The notes under the pieces: model-generated | What the model saw: only the letters and a program-made list of their open reading frames with translations | Database searches by the model: none | What the model was told of the DNA's origin: nothing | Shown: piece by piece, positions 23,671-31,255 of the stretch | Layout of the letters: each line of letters starts with the position of its first letter | Numbering within the stretch: the stretch's first letter is position 1 | From: Myxococcaceae bacterium | Lineage (GTDB): Bacteria; Myxococcota; Myxococcia; Myxococcales; Myxococcaceae | DNA length: 64,000 nt | Direction: 5' to 3' | Assembly: GCA_017881265.1 (NCBI GenBank) | Contig: JADGRA010000051.1 | Location: 1 to 64,000 of the forward strand | Position numbers and translations under genes: made by a program

Positions 23671-24102
23671 ATGGGGGCCCGGCGCACCGGACGCGAGCGC
23701 GCGCTGCAGGCGCTTTACCAGCTGGAGATGGGCTCGCTCGAGCCCGAGGCGGCCCTGGAGATGGCCTGGGCCTCGGCCCCCGAGGAGGAGGGGACGGCCA
23801 AGGCCCAGGCCGACGCGCGCGCCTTCGCGCGCGAGCTGGTGGAGGGTGTGGGCGGGCACCGCGAGGAGATTGACCGCCTCATCGAGGAACACAGCCATAA
23901 CTGGCGGCTGGACCGCATGGCGCGGGTCGACCGCAGCGTCCTCCGGGTGGCCGTCTACGAATTGCGCTTTCGCGAGGACATTCCCAAGAAGGTGACGTTG
24001 AACGAGGCGGTGGAGCTGGGCAAGCGCTACGGGACCGAGGAGTCCTCGGCGTTCATCAACGGCGTCCTGGACCGGATTGCGCTGGCGGTGGGAAAGGCAT
24101 GA
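23671..24102 (+). CDS. nusB: Transcription antitermination factor NusB
   Basis: All-helical RNA-binding protein acting with NusE (S10) in rRNA antitermination. 143 residues. The Arg-rich N-terminal helix (GARRTGRERALQALYQLEMG), the DRMARVDRSVLRVAVYEL core and the closing NEAVELGKRYGTEESSAFINGVLDRI are canonical. The stop overlaps the next start (ATGA). Confidence 0.96.
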   Translation: MGARRTGRERALQALYQLEMGSLEPEAALEMAWASAPEEEGTAKAQADARAFARELVEGVGGHREEIDRLIEEHSHNWRLDRMARVDRSVLRVAVYELRFREDIPKKVTLNEAVELGKRYGTEESSAFINGVLDRIALAVGKA

Positions 24103-24584
24103 GCAGCGTCAGCACCCACGAGTTGTCGCTGGAGACGCTGGACGGCCTCGACTCGGTGGACACGCTGTGCCTCTTCGTCGCCGAGGACGAGCGTCCCTTG
24201 AAGGGTGTCTCGGGCCTCTCCGACTGGCGGCTGTGCGGGCAGCTGTCGCGGCTGCTGGTGGACGGCTTCTTCTCCGGCGCGGCGGACGACTCGGTGCTGC
24301 TGCCGTCCGGGGGACGCATCGGCCCAGGGCGGATTGTGGTGTTTGGTCTGGGCCGGCGCGAGGCGCTGTCCGACGGGCCGGCGCTGGGGGCCCGCCTGGC
24401 GGCCGCCGGGGCCGTCCTCGACCGCGCCGGAGCGGTCTCGGTGGCGCTGGAAGTGCCCGGCGCCGGACAGCTTCCCGACGGCGAGCGGCTGCGCGCGCTG
24501 CGGACGGGCTTCCTGCCCGCCTTCCACGGCCGGCATGTGGCAGTGCTGGGCAGCAAGGCCTTCCAGCAGCTGCTCTCGGACTGA
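24099..24584 (+). CDS. M17 peptidase N-terminal-domain protein (no catalytic domain)
   Basis: 161 residues resembling the N-terminal alpha/beta domain of leucyl aminopeptidases: LCLFVAEDERPLKGVSGL, GRIGPGRIVVFGLGRR, LEVPGAG. The C-terminal M17 catalytic domain, which holds the two metals, is absent, so it is not a peptidase. Overlap with nusB by 4 bases indicates co-translation. The same frame continues after the stop into a DUF1345 remnant, but that is unrelated sequence. The stand-alone N-domain is probably a ligand- or protein-binding module; function unknown. Confidence 0.7.
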   Translation: MSSVSTHELSLETLDGLDSVDTLCLFVAEDERPLKGVSGLSDWRLCGQLSRLLVDGFFSGAADDSVLLPSGGRIGPGRIVVFGLGRREALSDGPALGARLAAAGAVLDRAGAVSVALEVPGAGQLPDGERLRALRTGFLPAFHGRHVAVLGSKAFQQLLSD

Positions 24585-24865: not shown

Positions 24866-25240
24866 ATGGGTTACAAGGTTCTCATCGTCGAGGACTCCGA
24901 GGCGTCGCGGGACTACCTGGCGACGGCGGTGACGTCCTTCGACGGGGTTGAAGTCGTCACCACGGACCGGGGCTTCGAGGCGCTCAAGCTTTTGCCCCTG
25001 CACCGCTTCGACCTCATCATCACCGACATCCAGATGCCGGACATCAACGGGTTGGAGCTCATCAACTTCGTCAAGAAGAACCCCAACTACCGCCACACCC
25101 CTCTCTTCATCGTCACCGCCGAGGGGCGCGAGCAGGACCGGGCGCGCGGCCTGGCGCTGGGGGCAGCGGAGTACCTGGTGAAGCCGGTGAAGGTGGAGGA
25201 CTTGGTGGGGCTGCTCCGGCGCTACCTCGAGCTCGCGTGA
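24866..25240 (+). CDS. CheY-like single-domain response regulator
   Basis: 124 residues, receiver domain only. Acidic pocket Glu9-Asp10 (IVEDSEAS), phosphoacceptor Asp54 (IITDIQMPDING), the conserved Thr in IVTAEGREQ and Lys in YLVKPVK. Its stop overlaps the CheA start (GTGA). It is the first gene of the chemosensory cluster. The output target is not encoded next to it, so it could act on motility or on gene expression elsewhere. Confidence 0.93.
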   Translation: MGYKVLIVEDSEASRDYLATAVTSFDGVEVVTTDRGFEALKLLPLHRFDLIITDIQMPDINGLELINFVKKNPNYRHTPLFIVTAEGREQDRARGLALGAAEYLVKPVKVEDLVGLLRRYLELA

Positions 25241-27315
25241 GTACCGACCGGCCGCTGTCGGACTTCGTTGCTGAAGCGGTCGAGACGGCCGAGGCCCTCG
25301 GCCGGGAGCTGCTGCGCCTGGACGCCTCCGCCGACGGCGAGCCGTCCCCGGCCATCCTCAACGCTGTCTTCCGGCACGCCCACTCCTTGAAGGGACTGGC
25401 TGCCCTGTACGGCCAGGCCACCATGGCGGACCTGGCCCACACCACCGAGGACCTCCTCGACCGGCTGCGGCTGGGGCGGCTGCGGCTGCGCGAGCCGGTG
25501 GTGGACGCGCTCAGCGAGGCGGTGGAGTTGCTGCAGCGGCTGGCGGTGGCCGCCGAGTCCGGCCTGGACGCCCATTTGCAAACGGCCGTGGACACGCTGC
25601 TGTCGCGCGTGCACCAGCTCGCCCAGGTACCGGAGCGCGTCAGCCCGGACCTCCTGCAGCGCTTGGAACTTTCCCCGGACGTCCGCGGCGTGCTGACCGA
25701 GTACGAGGAGCACCGCCTGCGGGAAACCCTGCGGCGGCGCGCCCTCGTCTGGCGCTTCAGCGTGCGCTGGCCGCTGGAGGACTTCGACAAGCACCTGCCG
25801 GCCCTGGTGGAACGTCTGGCCCCCTACGGGGAAGTCATCGCCACGCTGCCCGGCCACGCGGTGGATGACCCCACCGCCATCTGCTTCGAGTTGTTGATTG
25901 GCTCCGCGGCCGGCGAGGAACGGCTGGCCGCCGCCCTGGCCCCGGACCGGGGGGCGTTGTCGGTGGTGCCCTTCCGCAAGCGCCGCTCGCGCGTGGACCT
26001 GGCGCAGCTGGCCGGGCGGCAGGAGCGCCCGGCCGAGGTGGAGGCCGCCCCGCCGGCGGCGGAGGTCGAGGGCCCGCTGCGCGGCAGCAGCCGGACGGTG
26101 CGTGTCGACATCGAAAGACTGGATGAGATGATGAATGCGGTGGGGGAGCTGCGCCTCATCGCCGCCAACCTCCAGCGCCTGGCCGACGGGGCGACCGCCC
26201 CGGGCGTCCTGCAGCTGCCCCGGGCTTTCGGGGCCGACCTGCTGAAGGACCAGCGGCAGATGGCGCGACGACTGGACGCACTGCAGTCCGGCCTCCTCGC
26301 GGCGCGCATGGTGCCGCTCGACCAGGTGTTCGAGCGGCTGCAGCGCCTGGTGCGCCGGGTGGCGCGCGAGGCGGGCAAGGAACTCGAGCTCCTCACGCGC
26401 GGCGGGGACGTGGAGCTGGACAAACTGATTGTCGAGCAGCTTTCGGACCCGCTGATGCACCTGCTCCGCAACGCCATTGACCACGGCATCGAGACGCCGG
26501 CCGAGCGCGAGAAGGCGGCCAAGACCCGGCGCGGTCGCCTCACCCTCACCGCGCGGCCCTCCGGCGCGCACGTCGTCATCGAGGTGCGCGACGACGGGCG
26601 GGGCGTCAACACCGCGCGGGTGCGGGAAGTGGCCCTGGAGCGCGGGCTCCTCACCCCGGAGCAGGCGGCGGACGCCTCCCCCCGGTCGCTGCACCGGCTT
26701 CTCTTCACGCCCGGCTTCTCCACCGCGCGCAGCATCAGCTCGCTGTCCGGCCGGGGCGTCGGGCTGGACGTCGTCCACACCAACCTGGCGCGGCTGTCCG
26801 GCGTCATCGACGTGGAGAGCGTCTCCGGCCTGGGGACGTGCTTCCGCCTCACCCTACCGCTCACCCTGGCCATGGTGCGGGGTTTGATTGTGCGGGTCAG
26901 TGGCCGCACCTACGCCATCCCCCTCAACGGCGTGGTGGAGATTCTGGCGCTGGGCCCGGAGGCCGTGCACACCCGCGGCGGGCGCGAGTCCATCCTGGTG
27001 CGCGGCACCGCGCTGCCCCTGGTGCGGCTGGCACGCCTCTTCCGCCTGCCCGAGGTGGAGCTGCAGCGAAGAAACGTGGTGGTGGTGGGGCTGGCCCAGG
27101 AACGCCTGGGGCTGGCCGTGGATGAGTTGCTCGGCCAGGCGGACATGGTGACCAAGCCCCTCGGAGAGCGCCTCGCCCGGGTGGAGGGCATCGCCGGCGT
27201 GGCGGACCTCGGCAACCGGCGCACCGTGCTGGTGCTGGACGTGGCGGCCCTCATTGGGGAGGCGCTGCATGCGCCCGGCCCCGGCGCCGACGCGCGCCTC
27301 GCCCTTCCCGAATGA
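25237..27315 (+). CDS. cheA: Chemosensory histidine kinase CheA
   Basis: 692 residues from GTG 25237. Domains in order: HPt with phosphoacceptor His49 (FRHAHSLKG); a variable regulator-binding linker; the dimerisation helices (RTVRVDIERLDEMMNAVGEL); HATPase with N-box LLRNAIDHGIE, G1 DDGRGVN and G2 GRGVGLDVV; and a C-terminal CheW-like domain ending in VLDVAALIGEA. All catalytic motifs are present. It overlaps both the upstream regulator and the downstream cheW by 4 bases. No methyl-accepting receptor, CheR, CheB or CheD gene is adjacent. Confidence 0.95.
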   Translation: MSTDRPLSDFVAEAVETAEALGRELLRLDASADGEPSPAILNAVFRHAHSLKGLAALYGQATMADLAHTTEDLLDRLRLGRLRLREPVVDALSEAVELLQRLAVAAESGLDAHLQTAVDTLLSRVHQLAQVPERVSPDLLQRLELSPDVRGVLTEYEEHRLRETLRRRALVWRFSVRWPLEDFDKHLPALVERLAPYGEVIATLPGHAVDDPTAICFELLIGSAAGEERLAAALAPDRGALSVVPFRKRRSRVDLAQLAGRQERPAEVEAAPPAAEVEGPLRGSSRTVRVDIERLDEMMNAVGELRLIAANLQRLADGATAPGVLQLPRAFGADLLKDQRQMARRLDALQSGLLAARMVPLDQVFERLQRLVRRVAREAGKELELLTRGGDVELDKLIVEQLSDPLMHLLRNAIDHGIETPAEREKAAKTRRGRLTLTARPSGAHVVIEVRDDGRGVNTARVREVALERGLLTPEQAADASPRSLHRLLFTPGFSTARSISSLSGRGVGLDVVHTNLARLSGVIDVESVSGLGTCFRLTLPLTLAMVRGLIVRVSGRTYAIPLNGVVEILALGPEAVHTRGGRESILVRGTALPLVRLARLFRLPEVELQRRNVVVVGLAQERLGLAVDELLGQADMVTKPLGERLARVEGIAGVADLGNRRTVLVLDVAALIGEALHAPGPGADARLALPE

Positions 27316-27890
27316 GAAGCGGGCCGGACTCCCCGCTGGCGCCGTCCCTGCAGGCGCGCCTCCGGGCCTTTCGCTACCGGCCGGACGAGGACATCTCCGG
27401 GCTGTTGCTTCCGGAGGCGGGCGAGCCGCCGGTGGCGGCGGCCCCGGCCGCCGAGGTCCCGCGGGAGTACCTCTCGTTCGAGTTGCAGGAGACGACGTAC
27501 GCGGTGCCACTCTCCGCGGTGCTGGAAATCCTCCGCGCCCGTCCCCTGGTGGAGATTCCGCGCGCCCGGGGCGCGCTTTTGGGGGTGGTGGACCTCCGCG
27601 GCAGCGTGACGCCGGTGTACGACTTGGCCTTCGGGCTTCTTTTGCGTCGGCAGCTGCGCAAGGTGGCTGGCCCGGAGGAGGAGTGCGAGAAGGTGCCGCG
27701 GGAGGCACGCATCCTCGTCGCCCGCACCGCAGCGGGTCCGGCCGGAATGTGGGTGGACAGGGTGCGGGACGTGGTGCGGCTACCGCCCAGCAGCGTGGAG
27801 GCAGTCTCCGGCGACGGACCGGTGGTGGGCCGCGCCCTGGTGGCGCAGAAGCCGCTGGTGCTGCTGGAGCTGGAGAAGGTGCCCCTCTAG
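27312..27890 (+). CDS. CheW-like coupling protein, first copy
   Basis: 192 residues. A 50-residue N-terminal extension (possible helix and Ala/Pro linker) precedes a CheW domain that opens with EYLSFELQETTYAVPLSAV, with the family loop LLGVVDLRGSVTPVYDLAF. The domain normally links receptors to CheA. The ATG overlaps the cheA stop. The extension is longer than in enteric CheW (167 residues). Confidence 0.85.
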   Translation: MRSGPDSPLAPSLQARLRAFRYRPDEDISGLLLPEAGEPPVAAAPAAEVPREYLSFELQETTYAVPLSAVLEILRARPLVEIPRARGALLGVVDLRGSVTPVYDLAFGLLLRRQLRKVAGPEEECEKVPREARILVARTAAGPAGMWVDRVRDVVRLPPSSVEAVSGDGPVVGRALVAQKPLVLLELEKVPL

Positions 27891-28355
27891 GTGAGGCCCG
27901 GGCGTCCAGAGGACGAGGTGTTGGAACTCTTCACCTTCGCGGTGGGGGCGCACCGCTACGCCGTGGACTTGGCCCGGGTGGACGAGGTGCTGCCGGACAC
28001 GCCGGTGCAGCCGGTGCCGGAGGCGCACGCCCCGGTCGAAGGCTGCATCCGGCTGCGGGGTGAGCGCGTGCCGGTGGTGGCGCTGCGCGCCGCCCTGGGC
28101 GAGTCAGCGGCCCCGGAGGGCAGCCGCCCTGGGCTTCTGGTGTGCTGGCTGGGCCGGCGCCGGGTGGCCTTCGCCATGGACGGGGTGGGGGGCGTGGTGC
28201 CGGTGGCCGTCAGCGCGGTGCGGGTGCCGGGCGCGGCCGAGGCCGTCCCGCGCGGGGTGGTGGCGGTGTGGGCCCAGCCGCCCGGGGTCACGCTGCTTCT
28301 GGACATGCTGCAGCTGCTGGGGGGGAAGTCGCCGTCCGTGCCAGGGAGAGGGTAG
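27891..28355 (+). CDS. CheW-like protein, second copy (divergent)
   Basis: 154 residues from a GTG that abuts the previous stop. Opening LELFTFAVGAHRYAVDLARVDEVL and the GCIRLRGERVPVVALRAALG turn identify a CheW domain, more divergent than the first copy. Two unequal CheW copies beside one CheA suggest coupling to two receptor types, or one copy working as a scaffold. No neighbours indicate the receptor. Confidence 0.78.
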   Translation: MRPGRPEDEVLELFTFAVGAHRYAVDLARVDEVLPDTPVQPVPEAHAPVEGCIRLRGERVPVVALRAALGESAAPEGSRPGLLVCWLGRRRVAFAMDGVGGVVPVAVSAVRVPGAAEAVPRGVVAVWAQPPGVTLLLDMLQLLGGKSPSVPGRG

Positions 28356-28368
28356 AGTCTTCCTCCAG

Positions 28369-28752
28369 TTGGGGACGGTTGGCTTCCGCGCACTGGTGGT
28401 GGACGACTCGCTGGCGCAGCGCCGGCGGCTGGTGGCTGTCCTTCACACCCTGGGCGCCGCCGCCTGTGACGAGGCCGAGGACGGGGCAGAGGGCCTGAAG
28501 CGCTTCTCCGAGGCCGAGTACGACGTCGTCCTTACCGACTTGAACATGCCGCTGGTGGACGGCCTGAAACTCATCCACCACATCCGCGCCGGCGACCGGC
28601 GCCCGGACGTGCCCATCGTCGTGGTCACCACCGAGGCCGGGGAGACCGACCGCTCGCGAGCCATGGCCCTGGGCGCCAGTGCCTACCTGCTCAAGCCCAT
28701 TCACGCGGCCCGCGTCTCCTCGGCCGTGAAGGACTTGCTCGGCCTGCCATGA
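28369..28752 (+). CDS. CheY-like response regulator, second copy
   Basis: 127 residues from a TTG at 28369. This is the only start that keeps the first strand FRALVVDDSL while lying after the cheW stop; the purine run GGGAGAGG is about 20 bases upstream, so the start is tentative. Receiver features: Asp12-Asp13, phosphoacceptor Asp57 (VLTDLNMPLVDG), Thr in VVTTEAGETD and Lys in YLLKPIH. The stop overlaps the ABC ATPase start (ATGA), tying the chemosensory genes to the transporter. Confidence 0.85.
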   Translation: MGTVGFRALVVDDSLAQRRRLVAVLHTLGAAACDEAEDGAEGLKRFSEAEYDVVLTDLNMPLVDGLKLIHHIRAGDRRPDVPIVVVTTEAGETDRSRAMALGASAYLLKPIHAARVSSAVKDLLGLP

Positions 28753-29492
28753 CGGCGCAGCTGGAGGTGCGCGGGCTTGGCCGTAGCTACGGGGACTTCC
28801 GCGCCGTGGAGGGCCTGGACTTCCAGGTGGCGGCCGGCGAGGTGCTGGGGCTGGTGGGTCCCAACGGCGCCGGGAAAACCACCACGCTGCGCTGCCTGGC
28901 CGGCATCCTGCCCCCCACGGCGGGCAGCGTGCGCATCGGCGGGCATGACGTGCAGCGCGAGCCGGTGGCCGCCAAACGGGCCCTGGCCTACCTGCCCGAT
29001 GAGCCGCGTCTCTTCGAGTACCTCACCGTGTGGGAACACCTGAACTTCGCCGCGCGCCTGTACGGGGTACGGGACTGGGAGGCCGAGGGCCGGGCGCTCC
29101 TGGCGACGCTGGAACTGGAAGGCAAGGAGTCCGCGCTGCCCGGGGAACTGTCGCGCGGGATGAAGCAGAAGCTGTCCATCGCCTGCGGCTTTCTGCACCG
29201 GCCGGCGCTGGTGCTGCTGGATGAACCGCTGACCGGCCTGGACCCCTTGGGAATTCGCCGGATGAAGGAGGCCCTGCGCCACCGGGCCGAGTCCGGGGCG
29301 GCCCTGGTGCTCTCCTCGCACCTGCTGCCGCTGGTCGAGGAGCTGTGCAGCCGCGTCCTCATACTCGCCCGCGGCCGCGCAGTGGCGCTGGGCACGGTGG
29401 CGGAAATCCGTGCCCAGGCGGGCGCCGCCGGCAGCTCGCTGGAGGACCTGTTTCTCGCCGTCACTGCCGAAGAGGCTGGCGGCCAGCGGTGA
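28749..29492 (+). CDS. ABC transporter ATP-binding protein
   Basis: 247 residues, export-type ABC ATPase (CcmA/DrrA-like). Walker A GPNGAGKTTT, signature LSRGMKQKL, Walker B LVLLDEPLTGLDP and the H-loop SSHLLP. It overlaps the response regulator gene before it and the permease gene after it by 4 bases each, so the permease is its partner. Substrate unknown; the family includes gliding-motility and drug exporters. Confidence 0.92.
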   Translation: MTAQLEVRGLGRSYGDFRAVEGLDFQVAAGEVLGLVGPNGAGKTTTLRCLAGILPPTAGSVRIGGHDVQREPVAAKRALAYLPDEPRLFEYLTVWEHLNFAARLYGVRDWEAEGRALLATLELEGKESALPGELSRGMKQKLSIACGFLHRPALVLLDEPLTGLDPLGIRRMKEALRHRAESGAALVLSSHLLPLVEELCSRVLILARGRAVALGTVAEIRAQAGAAGSSLEDLFLAVTAEEAGGQR

Positions 29493-31255
29493 GCCTGGTT
29501 CGGGCAGGCGCCTTCCTGGTGGCTGCCTCGGCGCGCAACCGGGTGCTGCAGGCCGTCCGGAAGCTCCGCGAGCCGCGCTACCTGGTGGGCGCGGCCGCCA
29601 TGGCGCTGTACCTGTGGAGCTTCCTCCTCCGCGGGGCGGTGCGCAGCCACACGGAGACCGGGCTTCTGCCCGTGCAGACCCACGGCGCCGTCCGGCTGGC
29701 CCTGGAACTCGCGGTGACGGCCATCGGCGCCCTGGCCGTGTTTTCCACCTGGACGCTGGGCAAGGACAAGCTGTCCTTCTCCTTCAATGAGGCCGAGGTG
29801 ACGTGGCTGCTCAGTGGCCCCCTCAGCCGGCGCGCCGTCGTCCGCTACAAGGTGGGCGTCGGCCTGTTGCGGACGCTGCTCAGTGCGGTGCTGGTGACGC
29901 TGCTGTTTCGCCGGGGCCTGGCCGCCGCACTGCTACCCCTGGTGCTGGCCACTGCCCTCGGCTTCAGCCTGGTGTGGCTGCACTCGGCCCTCGCCTCCCT
30001 GGTGCGCGTCGGCTGGCACCACGCCGGGACGTCCCTGCAGCGGCGGACGCTGCTGGGCGGCCTCTTGCTGGCCGGCGTCGCGGGCCTCGTCTTTCGCGGG
30101 CTGCGCGCGGCAGGCCCCGTGCCCAGCTTCGCGCTGGAAGCCAACTTCGCCCTGGAGAAGCAGGCCCTCCTCGCGAACGGCACCGCCTGGCTGGGCCGGT
30201 TTGCCGGCGCCCCGGCCGTCGCCTGGGCGCGGTTGCCCGCCCGGGCGGTGCTGGACAGCGCCAGCGCGCGAAGCTTGGCGGAGGCCCTCGGCCCGCTGGC
30301 CGTGCTGGCTGGCTTCGCCGTGCTTCTCTTGACGGCGGTGCTGGTGCTGGACGTGCCGCTGGAGGAGGCGGCGCTTGCCTCCGCCGAGCGGCGCGCGCGC
30401 CTGGAAGCACGCCGCCGGCGCCGCGGGCTGCCGACACCGCGCTTGTCGCGGCTGCCCCGGCTGCGCGCTACCGGGGCGCCGGAGCTGGCACTGGCCTGGA
30501 AGAACTGGGCGGCCCTCCGGCGACTGTACGGCGCCGGCCTCGGCGTGCTGCTGGGCAGTCTCGGCGTCGGCGCGGGCCTGACGGCCTGGGCGGTGCTGCG
30601 CCGGACGCACGCCGGGGACTGGCGGCTGCTCGCCTCGCTGGTGGCCCTGCTGTTCGCCGTCTTCACCTTCTTCTTCGGGCCCCTCAGCACGCGCACGGAC
30701 TTGCGCGCGGACTTAAGACGGCTGGACGTGCTGCGGACGTTGCCCCTCAGCGGACTTCAGGTGGTGCGCGGGGAGTTGCTGGCGCCCTTCCTCCTCCTCG
30801 GCGCCACGGAGGTGGCCCTCCTGGTGCTGTCGCTGGGGCTGTCGGCGGGCAGTCCCTTGCGCGGCTTCCCCTTGGCGGCCCGCCTGGGCTGGACGGCGGG
30901 CCTGGCGCTGCTGCTGCCGGCCGCGACCGCGTCCCTGTTGGTGGTCCAGAATGCGGCGGCCCTCGTCTTCCCCAGCCTCCTGGTGGACGACGAGGAGCGG
31001 GCGCCGCGGGGGGTGGAGGCCACCGGCAGCCGCCTCATCAGCCTCGGGGCCTCGCTGCTGCTTCTGCTGGTGGGCCTTCTTCCTGCCGGTGTGCTGGGCG
31101 TCCTGGTCGGCCTGGCCGCGCGCTGGGGAGGCGTCGGGCCGCTGTCCGCCACCCTCGGCTGCGCGTGTGCAGCCGCCGTGCTGGCGGTGGAAATTCACCT
31201 CGCCCTCCTCCTCATGGGGCGCGGGCTGGAACGGCTCGACCCCACCCGGGCTTAG
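29489..31255 (+). CDS. ABC exporter permease
   Basis: 588 residues from GTG 29489, which overlaps the ATPase stop. About a dozen hydrophobic segments. A cytoplasmic loop rich in Arg/Ala (ERRARLEARRRRRGLPTPRL) divides the protein into two halves. The N-terminal region (FNEAEVTWLLSGPLSRRAVV) resembles putative ABC exporter subunits in which both membrane halves are fused. Substrate cannot be inferred. Confidence 0.85.
   Translation: MSLVRAGAFLVAASARNRVLQAVRKLREPRYLVGAAAMALYLWSFLLRGAVRSHTETGLLPVQTHGAVRLALELAVTAIGALAVFSTWTLGKDKLSFSFNEAEVTWLLSGPLSRRAVVRYKVGVGLLRTLLSAVLVTLLFRRGLAAALLPLVLATALGFSLVWLHSALASLVRVGWHHAGTSLQRRTLLGGLLLAGVAGLVFRGLRAAGPVPSFALEANFALEKQALLANGTAWLGRFAGAPAVAWARLPARAVLDSASARSLAEALGPLAVLAGFAVLLLTAVLVLDVPLEEAALASAERRARLEARRRRRGLPTPRLSRLPRLRATGAPELALAWKNWAALRRLYGAGLGVLLGSLGVGAGLTAWAVLRRTHAGDWRLLASLVALLFAVFTFFFGPLSTRTDLRADLRRLDVLRTLPLSGLQVVRGELLAPFLLLGATEVALLVLSLGLSAGSPLRGFPLAARLGWTAGLALLLPAATASLLVVQNAAALVFPSLLVDDEERAPRGVEATGSRLISLGASLLLLLVGLLPAGVLGVLVGLAARWGGVGPLSATLGCACAAAVLAVEIHLALLLMGRGLERLDPTRA

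Follow-up and report, generated by a model that had tools for sequence, protein, structure and literature searches.

A Che8-derived chemosensory core without adaptation enzymes, and its probable remote receptor, in a member of the Myxococcaceae

We consider it likely that a seven-gene locus in a draft Myxococcaceae genome is the core of the family's Che8 chemosensory system, from which a block of HEAT-repeat, CheR and CheB genes was lost, and which works without adaptation under a receptor encoded at a distance. Pathways of the Che8 type are ancient and occur widely among Myxococcota and Desulfuromonadales. What stands out here is a natural deletion of adaptation enzymes which, with matching decay in a single remote MCP, points to the receptor of Che8. 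The family allows arrays with and without methylation adaptation to be compared at short evolutionary distance.

Results

Organization of the locus

The window, the whole stretch of 64,000 nucleotides that was analysed, comes from a draft genome (G000) of 4.44 Mb in 81 contigs, estimated to be 95.7% complete. Seven genes were mapped by open reading frame calls, sequence and Pfam, and are listed with the point at which relatives carry additional genes.

24866 to 25240, plus strand: CheY (Y1); PF00072, 4.4e-26; position of CheY8b, MXAN_4759
25237 to 27315, plus strand: CheA; Hpt, H-kinase_dim, HATPase_c and CheW domains; GTG start; position of CheA8, MXAN_4758
27312 to 27890, plus strand: CheW (W1); PF01584, 3.9e-21; position of CheW8b
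27891 to 28355, plus strand: CheW (W2); PF01584, 3.3e-23; GTG start, alternative GTG at 27918; position of CheW8a
28356 to 28368, no strand: deletion point, where relatives carry genes for a HEAT-repeat protein, CheR and CheB (about 3.9 kb)
28369 to 28752, plus strand: CheY (Y2); PF00072, 3.8e-25; position of CheY8a, MXAN_4751
28749 to 29492, plus strand: ABC ATPase; PF00005, 2.2e-30; facultative neighbour
29489 to 31255, plus strand: multi-pass ABC permease; PF16962, barely above its cut-off

This succession of CheY, CheA, two CheW, CheY and an ABC pair had been proposed in the first-pass annotation, and both open reading frames and Pfam bear it out. Its count of 4-bp overlaps was exact: there are four, between Y1 and CheA, CheA and W1, Y2 and the ATPase, and the ATPase and the permease. 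Short overlaps of this kind are ordinary and common inside bacterial operons. W1 and W2 abut (0 bp), the GTG of W2 lying directly behind the stop of W1, and 13 bp separate W2 from Y2, whose start is most likely the TTG at 28369. The phospho-acceptor histidine and the N and G box motifs of CheA are intact, as is the receiver aspartate at the locus, and Y1 is 55-75% identical to its counterpart in most relatives. As had been stated earlier, no receptor, CheR or CheB gene was found inside the cluster by open reading frames and Pfam. Rfam gave no match in the window.

The locus is preceded by ribBA, ribH, nusB and a stand-alone M17 domain, and downstream of it come a gene for a membrane protein resembling holins, then asnS and leuS. 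The M17 gene (24099-24584 of the window) encodes an aminopeptidase N-terminal domain alone, without the catalytic domain; between nusB and cheY it is kept family-wide under purifying selection.

Relation to Che8

The comparison set for the family comprised 96 genomes from 26 genera. A single CheA8 match per genome was obtained for 89 of these genomes, belonging to 23 of the genera (E <= 1e-115), and the match sits at the same locus in every genome where the region was fetched. The window locus occupies the conserved position behind ribH and nusB, keeps the order CheY-CheA-CheW-CheW...CheY, has a CheA of the same orthologous group and lacks an MCP gene in the operon, with receptors encoded elsewhere. 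In relatives within the family, the succession of the genes and the sizes of their products agree with M. xanthus Che8 from MXAN_4759 down to MXAN_4751 (PMC3945109). The putative assignment draws on gene order, protein lengths and relatives, the sequences compared being those of relatives other than MXAN_4758 itself. Two features of a full Che8 operon are missing, CheR with CheB and the HEAT-repeat protein; the methylation enzymes and receptor methylation sites of a classical adapting pathway are missing as well. Because CheR and CheB are absent from both operon and genome, the locus is classed as a shortened derivative of Che8 and not as a complete member. Outside the family, loci of Desulfuromonadales, Polyangia and other groups share much of the order, with CheA about 40% identical.

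Loss of the HEAT-CheR-CheB block

Relatives with a contig spanning the region have CheY, CheA, CheW, CheW, a HEAT-repeat protein of about 658 aa, CheR, CheB and CheY, sometimes with extra genes between them. One such extra gene, seen mainly in Myxococcus-type genomes and placed between those for CheW and the HEAT protein, encodes about 125 aa that match no Pfam family (L141:7731-8093).

The three genes are missing between W2 and Y2 not only in G000 but also in G006 and G102 (L125 and L180), two separate assemblies from another genus, so that the lineage comprises three genomes and two genera. In a tree built from seven proteins encoded at the locus, and dominated by the Che proteins, these genomes form one group with support 1.0, and a single loss is therefore the simplest reading. 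No HEAT orthologue was found in any of the three, the best matches scoring 48-51 bits as against 519 in G008, and a genome-wide domain search of G000 detected neither a CheR domain nor a CheB methylesterase domain.

These results bear on whether the gap is an artefact of assembly. A draft in 81 contigs might lose genes, but the same order without the three genes recurs in both genomes of the other genus and the CheR and CheB domains are absent throughout G000, which makes an artefact extremely improbable. We conclude that the missing CheR and CheB reflect a lineage-specific deletion, not the original design. Two other explanations were rejected: a move of CheR and CheB elsewhere in G000, since no such domain was found genome-wide, and a lost receptor as the missing gene of about 658 aa between CheW2 and CheR, which Pfam identifies as a HEAT-repeat protein.

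A candidate receptor on another contig

G000 encodes three MCPs, all on contigs other than that of the locus. One belongs to a Dif-type cluster (L009), and the second resembles McpK and carries a solute-binding domain (L011). The third is a protein of 676 aa with two predicted membrane segments (C1:23252-25279); its size, the arrangement of its domains and its relative location on the map of G022 suggest that it probably corresponds to M. xanthus McpJ (MXAN_5907).

We compared the distribution of this C1-type MCP with that of CheA8. Among 40 relatives, it is present in 26 of the 27 with CheA8 and in none of the 13 without (Fisher 1e-9, relatedness ignored), the one exception, G002, being a genome only 78% complete. 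The two were lost together in several families (e.g. G012 and G020; G032 and G037; G036; G038). McpK, taken as a control, showed four mismatches with CheA8 as against one for the C1-type MCP, and three of the four fell in complete genomes. Across the family set, CheA8 occurs in 89 genomes and the C1-type MCP in 88, with five mismatches (G002, G045, G049, G068 and G106) that may in part be due to incompleteness and to a limit of 12 candidates scored per genome. Three small genomes of the same family (G020, G104 and G105, 2.1-2.7 Mb) have neither Che8 nor the MCP.

Further evidence came from distant loci that carry MCPs inside a Che8-type operon, three in Nitrospirota (L062-L064) and one in a Deltaproteobacterium (L053). 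Their MCPs score 220-320 bits against the C1-type MCP, compared with 125-160 against McpK and 75-103 against DifA, a gap that is absent for most MCPs near other CheAs. The three Nitrospirota loci have the Che8-type order plus MCPs, in one case with a phosphonate-binding domain as well as a sensor domain of the 40H class. The first-pass annotation had counted receptors just outside an ancestral locus against its own reading of the module, and this is largely what the ancestral-type Nitrospirota loci show, with receptors inside the operon.

A remotely encoded receptor has a precedent in Geobacter, where the MCP EsnA, encoded away from its cluster, binds the cluster CheW and CheA (EsnB and EsnC) in two-hybrid assays (PMC5585712). 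Taken together, the data indicate that the gene for the Che8 receptor of G000 probably lies in another part of the genome.

Decay of the adaptation regions in the C1-type MCP

Columns of the C1-type MCP were scored where conserved in >=85% of 26 orthologues from other genomes. This choice somewhat favours the 26, while the contrast between regions is independent of it. In G000, G006 and G102, the N-terminal adaptation helix kept 0.64, 0.68 and 0.73 of its columns, respectively, as against 0.92-1.00 in the 26 orthologues, and the C-terminal adaptation helix kept 0.67 in all three as against 0.87-1.00. The hairpin tip, which binds CheA and CheW, kept 0.89-0.92 (0.94-1.00 in the 26). At the sites themselves, VEETSSSM and AEESSSSI have become VEEARGVI and AEEGTATA in G000. 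The signalling domain of McpK, in comparison, kept a normal 0.92 in the same three genomes.

The McpK result also bears on whether the core has come under a Dif-type or McpK-type receptor borrowed from another system, as the first-pass annotation had allowed. These are the sole other MCPs of G000. However, the McpK signalling domain shows no change to match, no McpK was found in the Che8-positive genomes G025, G027 and G033, and the literature assigns DifA and McpK to class 44H, which is distinct from that of the 40H receptors (PMC3945109). Borrowing is accordingly quite unlikely. Of the earlier suggestion, the part that placed the receptor elsewhere stands, with the MCP on C1 as the candidate, while recruitment from the Dif or McpK systems is improbable; the Dif-type and McpK-type MCPs may serve as extra inputs to a core that would respond to the C1-type MCP.

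We tentatively suggest, as a possibility on the doubtful side, that the HEAT protein, CheR and CheB make up one adaptation unit in systems of the Che8 type, in which the HEAT protein docks the enzymes at the receptor. Loss of the block would then have left an adaptation-free switch and a receptor that sheds its methylation sites.

Selection on the remaining Che genes

CheA, W1, W2 and Y2 were accelerated on the stem of the G000, G006 and G102 lineage; the neighbouring ribBA, ribH and nusB were not. Within CheA, the P1 domain was kept (0.94-0.97) and the catalytic motifs are intact, with most change in P2 and the linker, P3 and P5. The faster change in P2, P3 and P5 may reflect declining function or a switch of partner.

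Such acceleration, like the decayed adaptation regions of the receptor, would be expected if the locus were a decaying remnant that has not signalled since the block was lost. That is improbable: all open reading frames are intact in three genomes split by long branches, the phospho-acceptor histidine and ATP-binding motifs of CheA persist, and the receptor tip is mostly kept. Moreover, comparison of G006 with G102 gave a dN/dS of 0.17 in CheA and of 0.08-0.24 in the other Che genes, similar to intact lineages. Because of this purifying selection in the sister pair, the Che system appears to have remained in use after the loss in the genus of G006 and G102, and we extend this reading to G000.

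The ABC pair is an optional neighbour

The first-pass annotation had suggested that the pathway controls the ABC exporter. Phosphorylated CheY2 would then gate or assemble the transporter, and translational coupling would match the amounts of the two. In agreement with this, Y2 and the ATPase overlap by 4 bp in G008 as well as in the window, the pair stands directly behind Y2 in 41 fetched relatives from six genera, and all permease-positive genomes of the family have Che8. However, the overlap occurs in only that one of the 41 relatives, the other 40 having a gap of 13-75 bp. A permease orthologue was detected in 66 of the 96 family genomes and 11 of the 26 genera, as against 23 genera for CheA8. 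The first-pass annotation had counted Che genes conserved without the pair in most relatives against its own reading, and this largely applies. In genera g8 and g12, the pair and Che8 are distant from each other. The sister genus g7 and G089 both retain Che8, but the search gave no permease orthologue in either. A different, unrelated gene occupies the place in other genera. The pair is thus not kept wherever the Che genes are, as a chemosensory-controlled exporter would require, and control of the exporter is unlikely.

Two observations concern the site itself. In G089, from a Myxococcus-type genus (L224), the pair has been lost beside an intact Che8. The unrelated protein that replaces the pair after CheY in other genera has 650-690 aa (L127:390-2465 and L134:11251-13239), is probably secreted and has no Pfam or NCBIfam match.

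The ATPase is only generically A/DrrA-like and the permease gave no match among solved structures; therefore, no substrate is proposed. The pair seems to be weakly linked to the pathway, an optional operon neighbour in some genera rather than a part of the conserved machine, and nothing singles it out as a target, although it may play a part in this organism.

Discussion

From gene order, the deletion, the absence of CheR and CheB, MCP co-distribution, decay of the adaptation regions and selection in the sister pair, all read from sequence, we infer a receptor-kinase pairing, a loss of adaptation, a flow of phosphate and an output. By way of the two CheW proteins, the membrane MCP encoded on C1 would bind CheA8 and set its autophosphorylation. 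CheY1 and CheY2 would then receive phosphate from CheA8, as orphan regulators perhaps do too. Since neither a methyltransferase nor a methylesterase is present, the receptor would no longer adapt and the output would track the level of the signal.

A role other than classical taxis, as proposed in the first-pass annotation, is plausible from the literature on Che8 and Esn-type systems. Deletion of cheA8 in M. xanthus affected fruiting and groEL transcription (PMC3945109, PMC9040617), and the Geobacter Esn system affects biofilm growth on electrodes (PMC5585712).

Comparison with known systems

The closest known system is M. xanthus Che8 (MXAN_4751-4759; PMC3945109), which shares the order CheY, CheA, CheW, CheW, CheY, an operon without an MCP gene and a CheA without a receiver domain. 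Unlike the window locus, it has CheR8, CheB8 and a HEAT protein (MXAN_4754, inferred from gene order), and its CheA8 has 862 aa as against 692 aa here. M. xanthus Che7 likewise ties a HEAT-repeat protein to a chemosensory pathway (PMC9040617), but has its own MCP, whereas the window locus has lost the HEAT gene. On HEAT partners of Che7 and Che8, our literature search found one indirect statement (PMC9040617).

The 'group beta' clusters of Geobacter lack an MCP gene, and related clusters are described for M. xanthus, Stigmatella and Anaeromyxobacter (PMC2577667). Like the window locus, the group beta and Esn clusters have CheA and two CheW proteins with an MCP, EsnA, encoded elsewhere (PMC2577667, PMC5585712). 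However, they have CheR and CheB, and their CheA and CheW genes are separated by one for an AAA ATPase; the window locus has neither feature, and their CheA is only about 40% identical to ours. GSU2222 would fall in a group beta-type cluster, as both show an ATPase gene at this point. The HEAT gene and leuS are also present in the Desulfuromonadales loci that we examined.

Chemotaxis in Helicobacter pylori likewise operates without CheR and CheB, and its receptor TlpD lacks canonical methylation sites (PMC12871147). The H. pylori pathway, however, serves flagellar taxis and its gene order is unrelated to Che8. In contrast to H. pylori, the loss described here is recent, and is visible against close relatives in which the system is intact.
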